Source: Rhizorhabdus histidinilytica (GTDB taxonomy: Bacteria > Pseudomonadota > Alphaproteobacteria > Sphingomonadales > Sphingomonadaceae). From it: a DNA stretch of 64,000 nucleotides. The DNA lies in the NCBI RefSeq assembly GCF_900167915.1, contig NZ_FUYM01000006.1:248001-312000 (forward strand). Reading direction: 5' to 3'. Shown here piece after piece: positions 7,574 through 37,088 of the stretch. Under the pieces are notes generated by a model, which worked only from the letters and a program-made list of their open reading frames with translations, searched no databases and was not told the origin of the DNA. The stretch's first letter is position 1, and every line of letters starts with the position of its first letter. The position numbers and the translations under genes are program-made.

Positions 7574-7609
7574 TCCACCCCATCATGTAACGCTTATGAA
7601 GGATGCCCC

Positions 7610-8236
7610 ATGAAGAAGACCTCCCTGATCGCCGGCGCCACGCTTGCCGCCCTGCTGGCCGGCGTCGCGGTCGCGCAGCCCGGCCCGCGCGGCGACGGTC
7701 CGCCCCCGCCACAGACCCGCGCGGAGCTGCAGGCGAAGATCGCCGACCATTTCAAGAAGGCCGATGCCAATGGCGACGGCTTCGTCACCAAGGCCGAGGC
7801 CGACGCGGCCCGCGCCAAGATGCGCGCCGCCTTCGCCGAGAAGCGCCAGGAACGGAAGGGCGAGCGCTTCGCGATGCTGGACAAGGACGGCAACGGCACG
7901 CTGTCGAAGGACGAGTTTCTCGCGCCCCCGCCGCCGCGCGGCGACGCCAGGGACGGCGGCCGTCCCGATCGCGACGGCAAGCATGGCCGGCACGGCTGGC
8001 GTGGCGGGCACCATCGCGGCGGCATGGCGATGATGGGCCATTGGTTCGATCGCGCCGATGCGAACAAGGACGGCAAGGTCAGCCTCGCCGAGGCGCAGGC
8101 CGGCCCGCTGGCGATGTTCGACCGGGTCGACGCCAACCATGACGGCACGATCAGCCCCGAGGAACGCCAGGCCGCCCGCACGGCGATGCGCGCCAAGTGG
8201 CAGGAACGCCGCGACGCGGCCAAGAACAGGGGCTGA
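7610..8236 (+). CDS. Secreted EF-hand domain protein with His/Gly/Arg-rich linker
   Basis: 208 residues. Signal peptide 1-22 ('LLAGVAVAQ'). Four EF-hand loops: 'ADANGDGFVTKAE' (about 52), 'LDKDGNGTLSKDE' (about 90), 'ADANKDGKVSLAE' (about 150) and 'VDANHDGTISPEE' (about 175). The two pairs are separated by a Pro-rich then His/Gly/Arg-rich stretch (about 104-140, 'HGRHGWRGGHHRGG'), which might bind metals such as Ni or Cu (inference). Common in sphingomonads; no demonstrated role is known to me. Start ATG at 7610. Confidence 0.85.
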   Translation: MKKTSLIAGATLAALLAGVAVAQPGPRGDGPPPPQTRAELQAKIADHFKKADANGDGFVTKAEADAARAKMRAAFAEKRQERKGERFAMLDKDGNGTLSKDEFLAPPPPRGDARDGGRPDRDGKHGRHGWRGGHHRGGMAMMGHWFDRADANKDGKVSLAEAQAGPLAMFDRVDANHDGTISPEERQAARTAMRAKWQERRDAAKNRG

Positions 8237-8251
8237 CCCCCAGCAGACACG

Positions 8252-8282
8252 GCGTCATCCCGGCATCCGCCGGGGTGACGTC
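8252..8282. repeat. Single GTCATCC...GGTGAC palindromic repeat
   Basis: GCGTCATCCCGGC and GCCGGGGTGACG form a short hairpin in the 44-nt gap between the convergent EF-hand and TetR genes. It belongs to the same repeat family as 5491-5579, 14111-14138 and 16773-16854 and may act as a terminator. Confidence 0.6.
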
Positions 8283-8880
8283 ATTTTTGGGCCAGCGCCA
8301 CCCGGAACCCGGCCGCCGCCGCATCGGCGAAGGCGCGGAGCTCCTCGGCACTCGCGCCGTCGCGCGCCGCCGCCGACAATCCCTTGAGCGCGGTCACGAC
8401 GATCGAGGCGAGCCGGTCGGCGCGATCGGGCGCCTCCACGGCGATCCGGGACGCGATCAGCGCCTGGCTCTCCTCCATCTTCCGCCGGGTCATCGCGACA
8501 GCCTCGGCGTCGCCGCTGCTGCGCGCGCCGTCGAGCACCAGGCAGCCGGCGATCCCGTCCTTGCGCGCATAGAGCCGCGCGGCGTCGCACAGTACCCGCT
8601 CGATCGCCTCGGCGACTCCACCGCCGCCGTCGAGAGCATCGGGGACGAAGCGGCCGAAGCTGCCTGCGTAGCGGTCGAGCACCTTGTCGAACAACGCTGC
8701 CTTGCTGCCGAAGGCGTTGTAGAAGCTGGGCGGCGTGATGCCGAGCGCCTTGCCGATGTCGGCGACGCCGACCCCGTCATAGCCCTTCTCCTGGAACAGC
8801 GCCTGCGCGGTCGCGATCGCCTGCTCGGGGTCGAATCCGCGCGGCCGTCCCCGCCCCTGCGATTTTTTTGTAGTGATCAT
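8281..8880 (-). CDS. TetR/AcrR family transcriptional regulator
   Basis: 199 residues. The N-terminal helix-turn-helix (about 15-60) reads 'FDPEQAIATAQALFQEKG' then 'VADIGKALGITPPSFYNAFG', the canonical TetR DNA-binding domain with the recognition helix at 'TPPSFYNAFGSK'. The C-terminal ligand-binding domain is variable. Divergent from a short-chain dehydrogenase gene, with two similar near-palindromes in the 74-nt gap, one of which overlaps its own ATG. It therefore probably represses both itself and the dehydrogenase; the ligand is unknown. Confidence 0.92.
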   Translation of the reverse strand: MITTKKSQGRGRPRGFDPEQAIATAQALFQEKGYDGVGVADIGKALGITPPSFYNAFGSKAALFDKVLDRYAGSFGRFVPDALDGGGGVAEAIERVLCDAARLYARKDGIAGCLVLDGARSSGDAEAVAMTRRKMEESQALIASRIAVEAPDRADRLASIVVTALKGLSAAARDGASAEELRAFADAAAAGFRVALAQK

Positions 8881-8884
8881 TATA
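8869..8884. promoter_or_regulatory. Probable TetR operator 1
   Basis: TGTAGTGATCATTATA, a near-palindrome centred on GATC. It closely matches the second site (8918-8933) and overlaps the TetR start codon at 8878-8880, as expected for autorepression. Confidence 0.65.
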
Positions 8885-8917
8885 AAAACCCTTGCATCGG
8901 CTGCATGGCCATATTTA

Positions 8918-8933
8918 TATAGCGATCACTATA
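8918..8933. promoter_or_regulatory. Probable TetR operator 2
   Basis: TATAGCGATCACTATA, palindromic except for one base pair. Its reverse complement TATAGTGATCGCTATA aligns with operator 1. It lies 22 nt before the dehydrogenase ATG, where it would block the promoter or early elongation. Confidence 0.7.
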
Positions 8934-8954
8934 GAAATGAAAAGGAGCTTTCCG

Positions 8955-9668
8955 ATGTCCGACAATGCTTCGCGCAAGATTCTCGTCCTCGGCGGCAGCC
9001 GGGGGATCGGCGCCGCGCTGGTCCGCCGCTTCGCCGGCGCCGGCGACCATGTCGTCTTCAGCTATGCCGGATCGGCCGAGGCTGCCGCCGCGCTCGCCGC
9101 CGAGACCGGCGCCCGCGCGATCCAGGTCGACAGCGCCGATCGCGACGCGCTGGTCGCCGCGGTCGCGGCCGAAGGGCCGGTCGACGTGCTGCTGGTCAAT
9201 GCCGGCACGCTCGCGCTCGGCGATCCGCTGACGATCGACGCGGACGCGGTCGACCATATGATCGACGTCAACGTCCGCGCGCCCTATCACGCCGCGGTCG
9301 AGGCCGCCCGGACGATGCCCGACGGCGGCCGCATCCTCGTCATCGGATCGACCAATGGCGACCGCATGCCCTTCGCCGGTGGCGCCGCCTATGCGATGAC
9401 CAAGTCGGCGATCCAGGGCATGGTGCGCGGCCTCGCCCGCGACCTGGGCGGGCGCGGCATCACCGTCAATTCGATCCAGCCGGGGCCGACCGACACCGAC
9501 ATGAACCCGGCGAGCGGTCCGATGGCCGAGACGATGCACGGCTTCATGGCGATCAAGCGCCATGTCCACGCGTCGGAGATCGCCGACTATGCCGCCTTCC
9601 TCGCCAGCCCCTCGGCGGCGATGATCACCGGATCGATGCAGACCATCGACGGCGGTTTCGGGGCCTGA
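8955..9668 (+). CDS. Short-chain dehydrogenase/reductase (SDR)
   Basis: 237 residues, classical SDR size. The Rossmann motif 'VLGGSRGIGAALVRRF' is at 10-25, 'VLLVNAG' (NAG motif) about 78-84, the catalytic Ser in 'VIGSTNG', and Tyr/Lys in 'AAYAMTKSAIQG' (YxxxK). The C-terminal 'ITGSMQTIDGGFGA' is typical of the FabG-like subgroup. An NAD(P)-dependent oxidoreductase of unknown substrate, likely de-repressed when the divergent TetR protein binds its ligand. ATG at 8955 with AAAGGAG upstream. Confidence 0.93.
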   Translation: MSDNASRKILVLGGSRGIGAALVRRFAGAGDHVVFSYAGSAEAAAALAAETGARAIQVDSADRDALVAAVAAEGPVDVLLVNAGTLALGDPLTIDADAVDHMIDVNVRAPYHAAVEAARTMPDGGRILVIGSTNGDRMPFAGGAAYAMTKSAIQGMVRGLARDLGGRGITVNSIQPGPTDTDMNPASGPMAETMHGFMAIKRHVHASEIADYAAFLASPSAAMITGSMQTIDGGFGA

Positions 9669-9685
9669 GCGCCCCGGCCACGCGC

Positions 9686-10009
9686 TCACCCCTGCCGGAA
9701 CAGCTCGGGATCGTCGAGGTTCATCGGGAAGGCCCAGAGCGGCTTGGGACCCGCCTTCATCGCCGGATCGGCGACGCGCATATAGTCGGTGCAGAGCGCG
9801 TCCCATTCGGCGACGATCGCGCGGGTCTCGTCCGAATCGGGGTCGAGCGGCAGCGCCGCCTGCACCCGCGCATTGTAATCGGCCCAGGCGGCGGCATGGC
9901 CATCATGGTCGAAGCCGGGGCCCAGCCTCTCCTTCGCCGCCTTCCATTCGGCCAGCTCGTCGCCGACGAAACATTCCGCCAGGACCCGTTTCCACGCACC
10001 ATCCGCCAT
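9686..10009 (-). CDS. Small protein, possibly TipAS-like ligand-binding domain without DNA-binding part
   Basis: 107 residues, helical and acidic, with 'DELAEWKAAKERLGP' and 'SDETRAIVAEWDALC' patterns. The spacing recalls the C-terminal TipAS drug-binding domain of MerR-type regulators (inference, weak). No helix-turn-helix is present. A single Cys lies in 'AECFVGDE' and another in 'ALCTDYM'. Good ribosome-binding site (AGGAGAG) before the ATG at 10009. Its stop lies 18 nt from the convergent SDR stop, and the cyclopropane synthase gene lies beyond its start on the same strand. Function unknown. Confidence 0.6.
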   Translation of the reverse strand: MADGAWKRVLAECFVGDELAEWKAAKERLGPGFDHDGHAAAWADYNARVQAALPLDPDSDETRAIVAEWDALCTDYMRVADPAMKAGPKPLWAFPMNLDDPELFRQG

Positions 10010-32983: not shown

Positions 32984-33229
32984 TCAGAGGTCGACCCCGG
33001 CCGCGATCGCCTCCAGCTTGCGGATGCGTTCCTTGAGATCGGCCAGCTCGATGCGGGCGGCGGGCGAAGGGCCGCCGGCAGGTTCGGCCGCCGGTACGGG
33101 CCGGCGTTCGAGCTTCATCCGCTCGAGCTCCAGCCAGCCGCGCCAGCCGCTCAGGCCGGCCCAGGCGACGACGCACAGGCCGAACAGCCCGGCGCCGCTG
33201 ACTGTCATCCAGATAATGGGATCGCTCAT
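32984..33229 (-). CDS. Small single-pass protein, fifth in the Psp-linked series
   Basis: 81 residues. One membrane segment ('WMTVSGAGLFGLCVVAWAGL', about 7-26), a Pro/Ala spacer, and a C-terminal coiled coil 'IELADLKERIRKLEAIAAG' (about 59-78). The coil begins like those of the three genes upstream ('LKERVAVLERI', 'VKDRLATVERI'), but the final EIDxLR element is missing, so it is either truncated or diverged. 16 nt from the preceding member. Last gene of the Psp-like array; its stop is followed by the convergent DUF4386 gene. Confidence 0.75.
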   Translation of the reverse strand: MSDPIIWMTVSGAGLFGLCVVAWAGLSGWRGWLELERMKLERRPVPAAEPAGGPSPAARIELADLKERIRKLEAIAAGVDL

Positions 33230-33245
33230 CGTTCTCGTTCCCTAC

Positions 33246-33500
33246 TCAATCGCGGTGCCGCAGCGCTTCGATCTCGCGATCGAGCGACAGCCCGCGGTCA
33301 TTCTCGGTGGCGATCCGCTCGAGCACCGCGACCCGCTCCTTGAGCGCACGCAGTTCCTCGCGGAGCCGGTCGTTCTCGCCGGTGTCGGGGCGGACGAATT
33401 CCTCGCCCTTGCCGCGCCGGACGACGCCATATTTGGCCCGCATCACGCTCGCGATCGCGGTGATCGCGACGATCAGCACCACCATTTCGAACGGATTCAT
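33246..33500 (-). CDS. Small single-pass coiled-coil protein, Psp-linked
   Basis: 84 residues. Membrane segment 'EMVVLIVAITAIASVMRAKY' (about 5-24), then a basic patch, then the coil 'LREELRALKERVAVLERIAT' and C-terminal 'LSLDREIEALRHRD'. The coil ending LERIxT and the tail EIxALR recur in the two genes upstream. ATG at 33500. Expected to sit in the inner membrane with the coil in the cytoplasm, as PspB does. I do not know a named family. Confidence 0.8.
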   Translation of the reverse strand: MNPFEMVVLIVAITAIASVMRAKYGVVRRGKGEEFVRPDTGENDRLREELRALKERVAVLERIATENDRGLSLDREIEALRHRD

Positions 33501-33523
33501 GGTCTCTCTCCGAAATCGGACGT

Positions 33524-33781
33524 TCAGTTGAGCGGCTGATCGCGCAGTCGGTCGATCTCGTCGGCCAGCACGGTCGAGCGGTCGGTGAGGATGCGCTCGA
33601 GCACCGCGACCCGCTGTTCGAGCCGTTCGGTCTTGGCCGCATATTGCGCGGCCTTCTCGGCGGCTTCGGCGGAGATCGCCTGGATCTGCCGTTCCTTGAG
33701 GCGAAACCAGTCGGTCACGACCCAGGCGAGGATGCCGAGGATCGGGATGCTGAGCACGGTGAAGGCGAAGACGTTGATCAT
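33524..33781 (-). CDS. Small single-pass coiled-coil protein, Psp-linked
   Basis: 85 residues. Membrane segment 'FAFTVLSIPILGILAWVVTD' (about 5-24), basic 'RLKERQIQ' after it, long coil 'EAAEKAAQYAAKTERLEQRV' and the shared C-terminal block 'AVLERILTD' ... 'LADEIDRLRDQ'. PspB has the corresponding sequence 'GTLERILDS'. 17 nt to the neighbour on either side of the operon; likely co-transcribed and produced in a complex with the others (inference). Confidence 0.8.
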   Translation of the reverse strand: MINVFAFTVLSIPILGILAWVVTDWFRLKERQIQAISAEAAEKAAQYAAKTERLEQRVAVLERILTDRSTVLADEIDRLRDQPLN

Positions 33782-33798
33782 GGTGGTACCCTTCGCGA

Positions 33799-34113
33799 TC
33801 AGTTGGCCGGGCCGCGCAGCGCGTCGATCTCGCGATCGAGGCGATAGCTGCCGTCGGTGACGATCCGCTCGACGGTGGCGAGCCGGTCCTTGACCGCCGA
33901 CAGTTCGGCGCGGAGCTGGGCGTTCTCGGTCGAGAGCAGCCTGACCCGCTCGGTCGTCTCGTCACTGGTGCGCGGATAGACCGCCTTGCCCCAGCTGTTC
34001 TCCAGCGGATAGCCGTGGCGGATACGGAGCCAGGTGGTGAACACCCAGGCCCCCAGGCCGAGCACGCCGAGCAGCGCGGCGACGGGTGCGAAGGCTTCGA
34101 ATGGGAAAGTCAT
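33799..34113 (-). CDS. Small single-pass coiled-coil protein, Psp-linked
   Basis: 104 residues. Membrane segment 'VAALLGVLGLGAWVFTTWL' (about 11-29), then 'RIRHGYPLENSWGKAVYP', then a coil 'LLSTENAQLRAELSAVKDRL' and the shared end 'ATVERIVTDGSYRLDREIDAL'-type motif (LDREIDALR at the tail). The coil and tail match the next two genes best. Preceded by a 150-nt gap after pspC that contains a short hairpin and a direct repeat, so it may also have its own promoter. Confidence 0.8.
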   Translation of the reverse strand: MTFPFEAFAPVAALLGVLGLGAWVFTTWLRIRHGYPLENSWGKAVYPRTSDETTERVRLLSTENAQLRAELSAVKDRLATVERIVTDGSYRLDREIDALRGPAN

Positions 34114-34263
34114 CGTCGGAACCCCTAAACCCTGAGTCGATCCCTATTTACATCAATGTCTGTCTAATTTTTTTCGACGAACGGCATGGCGCGTCGACGA
34201 ACGGCGCTGGTCGTGTAATCCTGTTTCCTGGTGAGCCGGACCGGTGAAATATCCGGTCGCGAT
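34114..34263. promoter_or_regulatory. Gap between pspC and the small-protein array
   Basis: 150 nt. Contains GACCGG...CCGGTC stem (34239-34258), a direct repeat CGACGAACGGC at 34175-34185 and 34195-34205, and an AT-rich stretch (34140-34175) that could be a promoter for the next gene. It therefore may divide the array into a core Psp part and a separately controllable part. Confidence 0.4.
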
Positions 34264-34644
34264 TCAGCGCAGAGCGTCGATCTCGCGGGCGAGAGCCGAG
34301 TTGTGGCTGGTCACGTGCGCCTCGATGTCGGCGATGCGGCGGTCGATGTCGCGGAACCGGGCGCGGACGTCGCGGACCGAGGCACCGGGCCGGGCGCGGA
34401 CCGCCTGCCAGAATTTCTCGTCCTCGCGACTGGTGCCGTAGAACTCGCCCGGCTTGTCGTTGGCCAGCCAGTTCACCACCAGATAGGCGACCAGCGCCCA
34501 GGGAAAGGTGACGAAGGTCAGGATCACAACGCCGACCCGGATCAGGGTGACGTCGATGCCGGTGTAGTCGGCCAGTCCGGCGCAGACGCCCAGCCATTTG
34601 CGATTGCGCTTGTCGAGGTAGAATTTGGTGCGGCGAGCGGACAT
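34264..34644 (-). CDS. pspC: PspC-domain envelope stress protein
   Basis: 126 residues. PspC domain (about 5-60): 'FYLDKRNRKWLGVCAGLADY', 'VTLIRVGVVILTFVTFPWAL' (membrane segments) and 'VAYLVVNWL'. The C-terminal cytoplasmic coil ends 'LAREIDALR', the same tail as in the small proteins downstream. Inner-membrane partner of PspB in phage-shock signalling. Lies 36 nt downstream of pspB on the same strand. Confidence 0.9.
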   Translation of the reverse strand: MSARRTKFYLDKRNRKWLGVCAGLADYTGIDVTLIRVGVVILTFVTFPWALVAYLVVNWLANDKPGEFYGTSREDEKFWQAVRARPGASVRDVRARFRDIDRRIADIEAHVTSHNSALAREIDALR

Positions 34645-34680
34645 TTCGAACTTCCTTCCTGTTGCGGGGGCTGCCTGCGA

Positions 34681-34950
34681 TCAATTGTCGCGGCGCCACT
34701 CCTCCTCACGGGCGCGGTCGACGCTCTGGCGGGGGCGCCAGGCGGGATCCTGGCTGTCCAGGATCCGTTCCAGCGTGCCGAGCCGATCGTCGAGCCGGCG
34801 GGCCATCTCATGCATGTCGTCGAGCAGCTTCTCGTCCTCGACCGTCAGGCCGCCATTCTTCTTCCACTGGGTGACGTAGTGGAAGATCAGCCAGGGCAGG
34901 CCCAGGAAGAGGATGCCGACGACGACGATCGGAACGAGGATGTCTTCCAT
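34681..34950 (-). CDS. pspB: PspB-type phage shock protein
   Basis: 89 residues. N-terminal membrane segment 'DILVPIVVVGILFLGLPWLI' (2-21), 'FHYVTQWKKNGGLTVEDEKL' and a coiled coil 'MHEMARRLDDRLGTLERILD', the PspB signature. It helps relieve PspA's block on PspF under inner-membrane stress. 4 nt after pspA on the same strand; no overlap. Confidence 0.92.
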   Translation of the reverse strand: MEDILVPIVVVGILFLGLPWLIFHYVTQWKKNGGLTVEDEKLLDDMHEMARRLDDRLGTLERILDSQDPAWRPRQSVDRAREEEWRRDN

Positions 34951-34954
34951 GGGG

Positions 34955-35626
34955 TCAGGCTCCCTTGCCCGATGCCTTGGCCTTCAGCGCGGCCAGCTCG
35001 GCATCGACCTTGTCGGAGGAGCGCAGCTCGGCGATCTCCTCCTCGAGCGTCTTGGGCGCGCCGCCCATGCCCGCCGCTTCGGCGCGGCCCTCGGCATAGT
35101 CGACCCGGCGTTCGAGCAGCTCGAAGCGCGAGAAGGCCTCATCGATCTTCGGGCCGGCGTACATCTCGCGCATGCGGGCGCGGTTGTTCGCCGATTCGAG
35201 ACGGGTGACGATGCTGTTCTGGCGGGCGCGCGCCTCGCGCAGCTTGCCCTGCAGCTTGGCGATGTCGGCCTCGGACGCCTTGAGCGATTCGTCGAGCAGC
35301 GCGATCTCCTCGTTGAGCTGCTCGGCCAGGTCGGCCGCCTTCTGCTTCTCGACCAGCGCCGCCTTGGCGAGGTCCTCGCGGTCCTTCGACAGCGCCAGCT
35401 CCGCCTTCTCCAGCCAGTTGGCCTGGACGGTGTCGAGCTTGGCGATCTGGCGGCGCAGCTCCTTCTGGTCGGCGATCGTGCGCGCCGCCGAGGCGCGAAC
35501 CTCGACCAGCGTCTCCTCCATCTCGAGGATGATCATGCGGATCATCTTCGCCGGATCCTCCGCCTTGTCGAGAAGGTCGGTGACGTTGGCGGCGATGATG
35601 TCGCGGGTTCGGGAGAAAATCCCCAT
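34955..35626 (-). CDS. pspA: Phage shock protein A (PspA/IM30 family)
   Basis: 223 residues, normal size. '[19 protein letters not shown]' (amphipathic N-terminal helix that binds damaged membrane), then '[20 protein letters not shown]' and a long coiled coil (about 25-190), typical of PspA/IM30. Negatively regulates PspF and stabilises the inner membrane as oligomers. ATG 35626 with AAGGAG upstream. First of the core Psp genes, downstream of a 48-codon gene and a hairpin. Confidence 0.96.
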
Positions 35627-35717: not shown

Positions 35718-35864
35718 TTAGTTGACGACCTGGACCACCGTGGCGGCGACCATGTCGGCGCGCGCCGGAGCGACGGCACCGGTCACGCAGATCACGGACA
35801 GGATCGCGGCACCGATCGTCGAGACGGTGATCCGCTGGAGGTCGATCTTGTCGAACTTGAACAT
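35718..35864 (-). CDS. 48-residue signal-peptide-like small protein, first gene behind the sigma-54 promoter
   Basis: 48 residues: basic start '[13 protein letters not shown]', hydrophobic core '[18 protein letters not shown]', then 'APARADM', a good signal-peptidase site after ARA. Cleavage would leave about 12 residues. It may instead stay anchored. ATG 35864, with AGGAATGAAG upstream, about 50 nt from the predicted start of the sigma-54 transcript. Sphingomonads have similar small proteins, but I know no function. As the first gene of the stress operon it may be an envelope-stress peptide (inference). Confidence 0.7.
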
Positions 35865-35921: not shown

Positions 35922-35938
35922 TTGCAGGGACCGTGCCA
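35922..35938 (-). promoter_or_regulatory. Sigma-54 (RpoN) promoter of the psp operon
   Basis: Read on the minus strand: TGGCACG, four bases, CTGCA, the consensus -24 (GG) and -12 (GC) spacing with 12 nt between the GG and GC pairs. It lies 58-74 nt upstream of the 48-codon gene and in the gap opposite pspF, exactly where a PspF-controlled promoter is expected. Confidence 0.8.

Positions 35939-36038: not shown

Positions 36039-37084
<1,046 letters not shown>

Positions 37085-37088
<4 letters not shown>

Follow-up and report, generated by a model that had tools for sequence, protein, structure and literature searches.

The relay of stress to PspA has been studied almost only in enterobacteria, where the phage shock (Psp) system has one PspB and one PspC, and where PspD and PspG are additional small membrane proteins of the response. 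PspC binds PspA through its cytoplasmic C-terminus upon stress, and PspF is thereby freed (PMC5596341; PMC6003685). V105 of E. coli PspC is required for the binding of PspA, and the substitution V105D (the counterpart in Yersinia is V125) abolishes PspC-dependent signaling (PMC6003685). Main-text passages of Ravi et al. 2024 (PMC11237479) list PspB duplicates within psp operons, as well as divergent PspB fused to PspC, so the statement in the first-pass annotation of this DNA that known Psp systems typically contain only PspB and PspC goes too far.

Organization of the psp locus

Within the window, the whole stretch of 64,000 nucleotides of Rhizorhabdus histidinilytica DNA analyzed here, pspF and, on the opposite strand, pspABC constitute a σ54/PspF-type psp locus that is followed by four small genes, referred to as g1 to g4 (Table 1). 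The core proteins PspF, PspA, PspB, and PspC all score above their NCBIfam cut-offs, and a sigma-54 promoter-like site is located upstream of the pspA transcription unit, as in phage shock loci of the PspFABC type. Given its position, the small ORF between this site and pspA would head the induced transcript. It has no match in Pfam and a single match below the cut-off in NCBIfam (E 0.024).

Table 1. Features of the psp locus, with positions in the window
Feature	Position	Strand	Description
pspF	36039..37088	+	sigma-54 activator of the psp operon; TIGR02974, 480.6 bits (cut-off 443.55)
sigma-54 promoter-like site	35923..35938	-	TGGCACGGTCCCTGCA; 1 mismatch relative to TGGCACGNNNNTTGCW
small ORF	35718..35864	-	48 aa; one hydrophobic segment; between sigma-54 site and pspA
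pspA	34955..35626	-	TIGR02977, 278.9 bits (cut-off 242.95)
pspB	34681..34950	-	TIGR02976, 78.1 bits (cut-off 51.7)
pspC	34264..34644	-	TIGR02978, 114 bits (cut-off 104)
direct repeat	34174..34201	-	TTCGTCGA-N12-TTCGTCGA; in the pspC-g1 gap
g1	33799-34113	-	104 aa; TM, invariant GYPLEN-WG linker, long helix, PspC-like tail; orthogroup a
g2	33524-33781	-	85 aa; TM, coil, PspC-like tail; closest to PspB
g3	33246-33500	-	84 aa; TM, coil, PspC-like tail; orthogroup b
g4	32984-33229	-	81 aa; TM, invariant W..W, then RIELADLKERIRKLEAIA-GVDL; last in the set

The four small ORFs are real genes under purifying selection, with pN/pS values of 0.33–0.40 across the set (the value for g1 being taken from a set without paralogs). 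They had first been described as following pspABC on the same strand with gaps of 16–23 nt. Their coordinates, their ATG starts, and the spacing of about 16–23 nt between them were confirmed, whereas pspC and g1 are about 150 nt apart. The direct repeat of TTCGTCGA in this larger gap has a single occurrence genome-wide and is mostly kept in an alignment of the gap from the genus; it is a possible regulator or control site for g1–g4. A search of the gap for a sigma-54 or sigma-70 promoter found none, and no family was matched in an Rfam search.

Each of the four proteins has a single N-terminal hydrophobic segment, in agreement with the one membrane segment initially proposed. Past this segment, Lys and Arg are enriched in 310 of 312 relatives of the g proteins and in 80 of 81 g4 proteins, so that the positive-inside rule predicts a cytoplasmic C-terminus. 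The AlphaFold model of g1 (pLDDT 75) has a membrane helix at residues 5–33 and a second helix at residues 50–100, with the GYPLEN-WG linker located between the two.

Relationship of the small proteins to PspB and PspC

Searches of known families in Pfam and NCBIfam gave weak matches to PspB or PspC for g1 and g3 and nothing of note for g4, while g2 falls 0.1 bit short of PspB in PF06667 (25.5 bits, cut-off 25.6, E 1.3e-5) and matches TIGR02976 along its membrane segment and coil (30.1 bits, cut-off 51.7, E 4.3e-7). None of g1–g4 passes a PspB cut-off, and the PspC domain (PF04024) was not found in any of the four. A single match of g4 to PspM (E 0.032) lies far under the cut-off, and this assignment was rejected.

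PspB (PF06667/TIGR02976) is resembled by these proteins in its size, its single N-terminal membrane helix, its cytoplasmic coil with R-x-x-x-L-E-R-I-L, and its position in the psp operon. The differences are that g1–g3 occur as several divergent copies and that they end in L--EI--LR, without the P-x-W-R C-terminus seen in PspB of E. coli and of the window. All the endings quoted in the first-pass annotation are present in the sequence; g1–g3 share theirs, and g4 lacks it. The accompanying claim that one motif runs through the operon holds for the C-terminal helix of PspC (about residues 90–126; a single helix at 90–125 in a low-confidence AlphaFold model, pLDDT 60), whereas PspB contains only the LERIL part. 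With the C-terminal domain of PspC (TIGR02978, about residues 60–121), g1–g3 have in common the helix ER-x-V-T-[SD] ... L--EI--LR, the end point of this helix, and the position of V105, but they stand alone, without the PspC domain and without the first membrane segment of PspC. A sequence search for solved structures of PspB or PspC returned none.

Kinship was assessed by block shuffles and by hhalign comparisons of families built from relatives. No shuffle in 300 reached the real score for g1–g2, g1–g3, or g2–g3, or for PspC with any of the three. Comparisons among the g1, g2, and g3 families gave 98.7–99.6% (g3 against the g1 family, 99.6%), and those with PspB ranged from 50 to 96%, including 94.3% for the g1 family, 94% for the g2 family (95.8% with outgroup PspB), and 85% for the g3 family with outgroup PspB. 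Against the C-terminus of sphingomonad PspC, the values were 90% for the g1 family, 65% for g2, and 48% for g3, and against that of outgroup PspC 17–77%. The alignment of g1 with PspC extends to the last PspC residue, and the value of 90% was reproduced on repeat. E. coli PspB was matched at E 0.0017; E. coli PspC alone matched the tail model only weakly (4.8%), and the link between tail and PspC therefore runs via alphaproteobacterial PspC profiles. The g4 family reached 93% with the g2 family and 83% with the g3 family, and about 1% with PspB and PspC.

The sequences are short and helical, and several random Pfam matches at E 0.01–0.1 were seen, as would suit a chance coiled-coil likeness among unrelated small membrane genes behind pspC. 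Such an origin is highly improbable given the controls: reversed profiles did not exceed about 15%, nor PspA 6.5%, and a tail model of 48 positions from 25 tails, searched against the six frames of the 5.47-Mb genome, placed g2, g1, and g3 on top (E 1e-15 to 1e-17), the C-terminus of PspC fourth (E 0.098), and only noise thereafter (E 0.43 and 1.1). With this ranking, the objection that the motif aligns no better than random coiled coils fails; the shuffles likewise favor kinship, and the reversed-profile, PspA-profile, and whole-genome controls rule out a generic coiled coil as the source of the motif. Linkage to pspA in 78 of 78 loci and perfect co-occurrence with PspA in 41 of 41 genomes, described below, also argue against chance.

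At the level of sequence, g1–g3 are confirmed as paralogs, with PspB and the helix at the C-terminus of PspC as their closest kin; the kinship of g4 to them is weaker and less sure. The proposal that a PspB-type partner had been multiplied is thus borne out for the membrane part and the coil, which are PspB-like, and not for the ending, which is the C-terminal helix of PspC (ER-I-V-T-D ... L--EI--LR), nor by any score above a PspB cut-off. The same evidence bears on whether g1–g4 could be extra copies of PspB proper, pairing with PspC or replacing PspB in PspB–PspC complexes as added sensors, with no contact to PspA. We consider this unlikely: the match of g2 to TIGR02976 at E 4e-7, the 94% of the g1 and g2 families to PspB, and the PspB duplicates on record in main-text passages of PMC11237479 are compatible with it, but the conserved ending of g1–g3 is that of PspC, and no member of the set in the window is accepted as PspB.

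E. coli PspC V105 is located within MERYVTSDT, which aligns with VERIVTDGS of g1, and the equivalent position in tail relatives is A, V, I, or L. Around this position, g1–g3 have a predicted PspA-binding helix of the PspC type. Taken together with the cytoplasmic charges and the helix models, the alignment at V105 suggests that g1–g3 each provide a membrane-anchored copy of the helix that docks PspA. The idea of docking coils for PspA, put forward in the first-pass annotation, gains support from the presence of the PspA-binding residue of PspC inside the shared motif.

The same C-terminal tail is found in a DUF6487-like zinc-ribbon protein encoded in a Sphingomonadaceae genome (L186, 4704-5117). 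This carrier suggests that the PspC-like tail is a portable module.

Conservation in Sphingomonadaceae

In all 24 genomes of the same family first surveyed, psp-linked copies were found, with one to seven tail genes and g4 as the last gene. Eighty named loci were collected via g4 from Sphingomonas, Sphingobium, Rhizorhabdus, Hephaestia, and others. In 78 of these, pspA, pspB, and pspC adjoin the g4 cluster, in which one to five tail genes precede g4; the remaining two lie on short contigs ending ahead of the position of pspA, so that linkage to pspA was seen in every testable locus (78/78). A sigma-54 site with the same core as that in the window is present in 74 of the 78 loci, and 70 have a small hydrophobic ORF in a similar position before pspA, whose hydrophobic stretch is often followed by GAVGPA or SAVGPA.

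Of 187 Sphingomonadaceae genomes sampled, 177 contain g4, and in the 61 other genomes of the order it gave marginal matches only (three, at E 2e-4 to 5e-4), making it a firm marker of the family. Nine of the ten family genomes without g4 carry PspA, and all nine have tail genes; the tenth has neither pspA nor tails. Other families of the order with pspA have a plain pspFABC, except one, in which a single copy is linked to the locus (L058).

The 312 tail proteins are divided among three large orthogroups, which a paralog tree of 86 columns resolves loosely. These orthogroups cross genera, implying that the duplications are old and were followed by gains and losses; some Rhizorhabdus species are without g1 or g2. 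The biggest cluster observed comprises seven tail genes and g4 (L049, about 7600-10000, minus strand). Several of its start codons overlap the stop of the gene before, which suggests translational coupling.

Gain and loss of copies between species, a location downstream of pspABC, and the conservation of g4 despite its lack of likeness to PspB or PspC would also fit effectors, that is, small membrane proteins induced together with PspA that, after stress, stabilize the membrane or act as scaffolds for PspA assemblies and take no part in signaling. Their role would be like that of PspD and PspG, to which the g proteins are similar as extra small membrane proteins of a psp system; E. coli PspD shows no such tail by eye. 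Since the tail keeps the PspC signaling motif at the PspA-binding residue, we regard a pure effector role as quite improbable.

Relatives in other families and co-occurrence with PspA

The tail model matches 41 of 299 genomes of the phylum, and PspA scores above its cut-off in 63. All 41 tail-bearing genomes carry PspA (Fisher p about 1e-34), as do all 25 outside the own family of the window (Fisher p 3e-23), both p-values being inflated by the kinship of the genomes. Counted by family, the tail occurs in eight, all of them among the 12 families with PspA. The association of the tail with pspA expected from the first description is therefore strict in this sample.

The matches outside Sphingomonadaceae are almost all unlinked to psp genes and encode proteins of 64–99 aa that carry the same tail behind a hydrophobic stretch at the N-terminus. 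When compared with 18,950 NCBIfam models, the six unlinked relatives tested all had the C-terminal half of PspC or PspB as the best match, always below the cut-off. Two weak matches of the tail model adjoining pspA are probably PspC itself. In the scanned loci with unlinked relatives, no sigma-54 site was found close upstream of these genes, and co-regulation of these genes is therefore not supported.

Unlinked single genes encoding small membrane proteins of the PspC-tail/PspB-like type are located, in other proteobacterial families, at L053 (7680-7904), L171 (5260-5502), L170 (4971-5201), and L177 (4895-5125), among unrelated neighbors. Tandem pairs of tail genes away from pspA occur at L173 (5227-5724) and L174 (4968-5517), indicating that pairing arises outside Sphingomonadaceae as well. 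In another alphaproteobacterial family, a second PspB-like gene lies about 1.2 kb from pspB (L187, 6069-6314).

Discussion

We regard it as reasonably likely, on the evidence of sequence comparison, that g1–g3 are paralogs that span the inner membrane once and combine a PspB-like anchor and coil with a PspC-like helix for docking of PspA; g4 belongs to this group less surely. Each protein would present this membrane-anchored helix to PspA, by itself or within coiled coils mixed with PspB and PspC. During envelope stress, PspA could then be pulled off PspF by several receptors that each have a membrane and linker part of their own. These receptors may retain PspA at the inner membrane or enrich it there, and their copy number may tune sensing or effector capacity. 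The sharing of the PspC tail by extra proteins thus probably provides several membrane docking points for PspA rather than one; the tails might just as well bind PspC, PspB, or one another. More tentatively, stand-alone PspC-tail proteins may form an unrecognized family of membrane receptors for PspA, present as unlinked singles or pairs in several proteobacterial families and in tandem in Sphingomonadaceae.

The g1–g4 set is best described as a variant of the Psp system and not as members of the PspB family, PspB duplicates and fusions being already known. The closest described arrangement is that of extra PspB-like units in a pspFABC operon, such as AOL22920.1, in main-text passages of Ravi et al. 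2024 (PMC11237479). The tail homology, the orthogroups, g4, the unlinked relatives, and the co-occurrence figures go beyond these passages. In the literature searched, nothing was found on an expansion of psp loci in sphingomonads. As far as the literature found shows, including those main-text passages, the identity of the tail with that of PspC, the orthogroups, the g4 marker, the expansion to up to eight genes, the unlinked relatives, and the finding that these strictly co-occur with PspA are new.

A testable function is hereby proposed for genes that score under the curated Psp cut-offs. Up to eight related anchors in one lineage, together with unlinked relatives found only in genomes with PspA, offer natural variants for dissecting sensing, docking, and copy number. 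If stand-alone PspC-tail proteins do act as such receptors for PspA, the Psp response would have many membrane inputs, in contrast to the single PspB–PspC sensor of the enterobacterial model.
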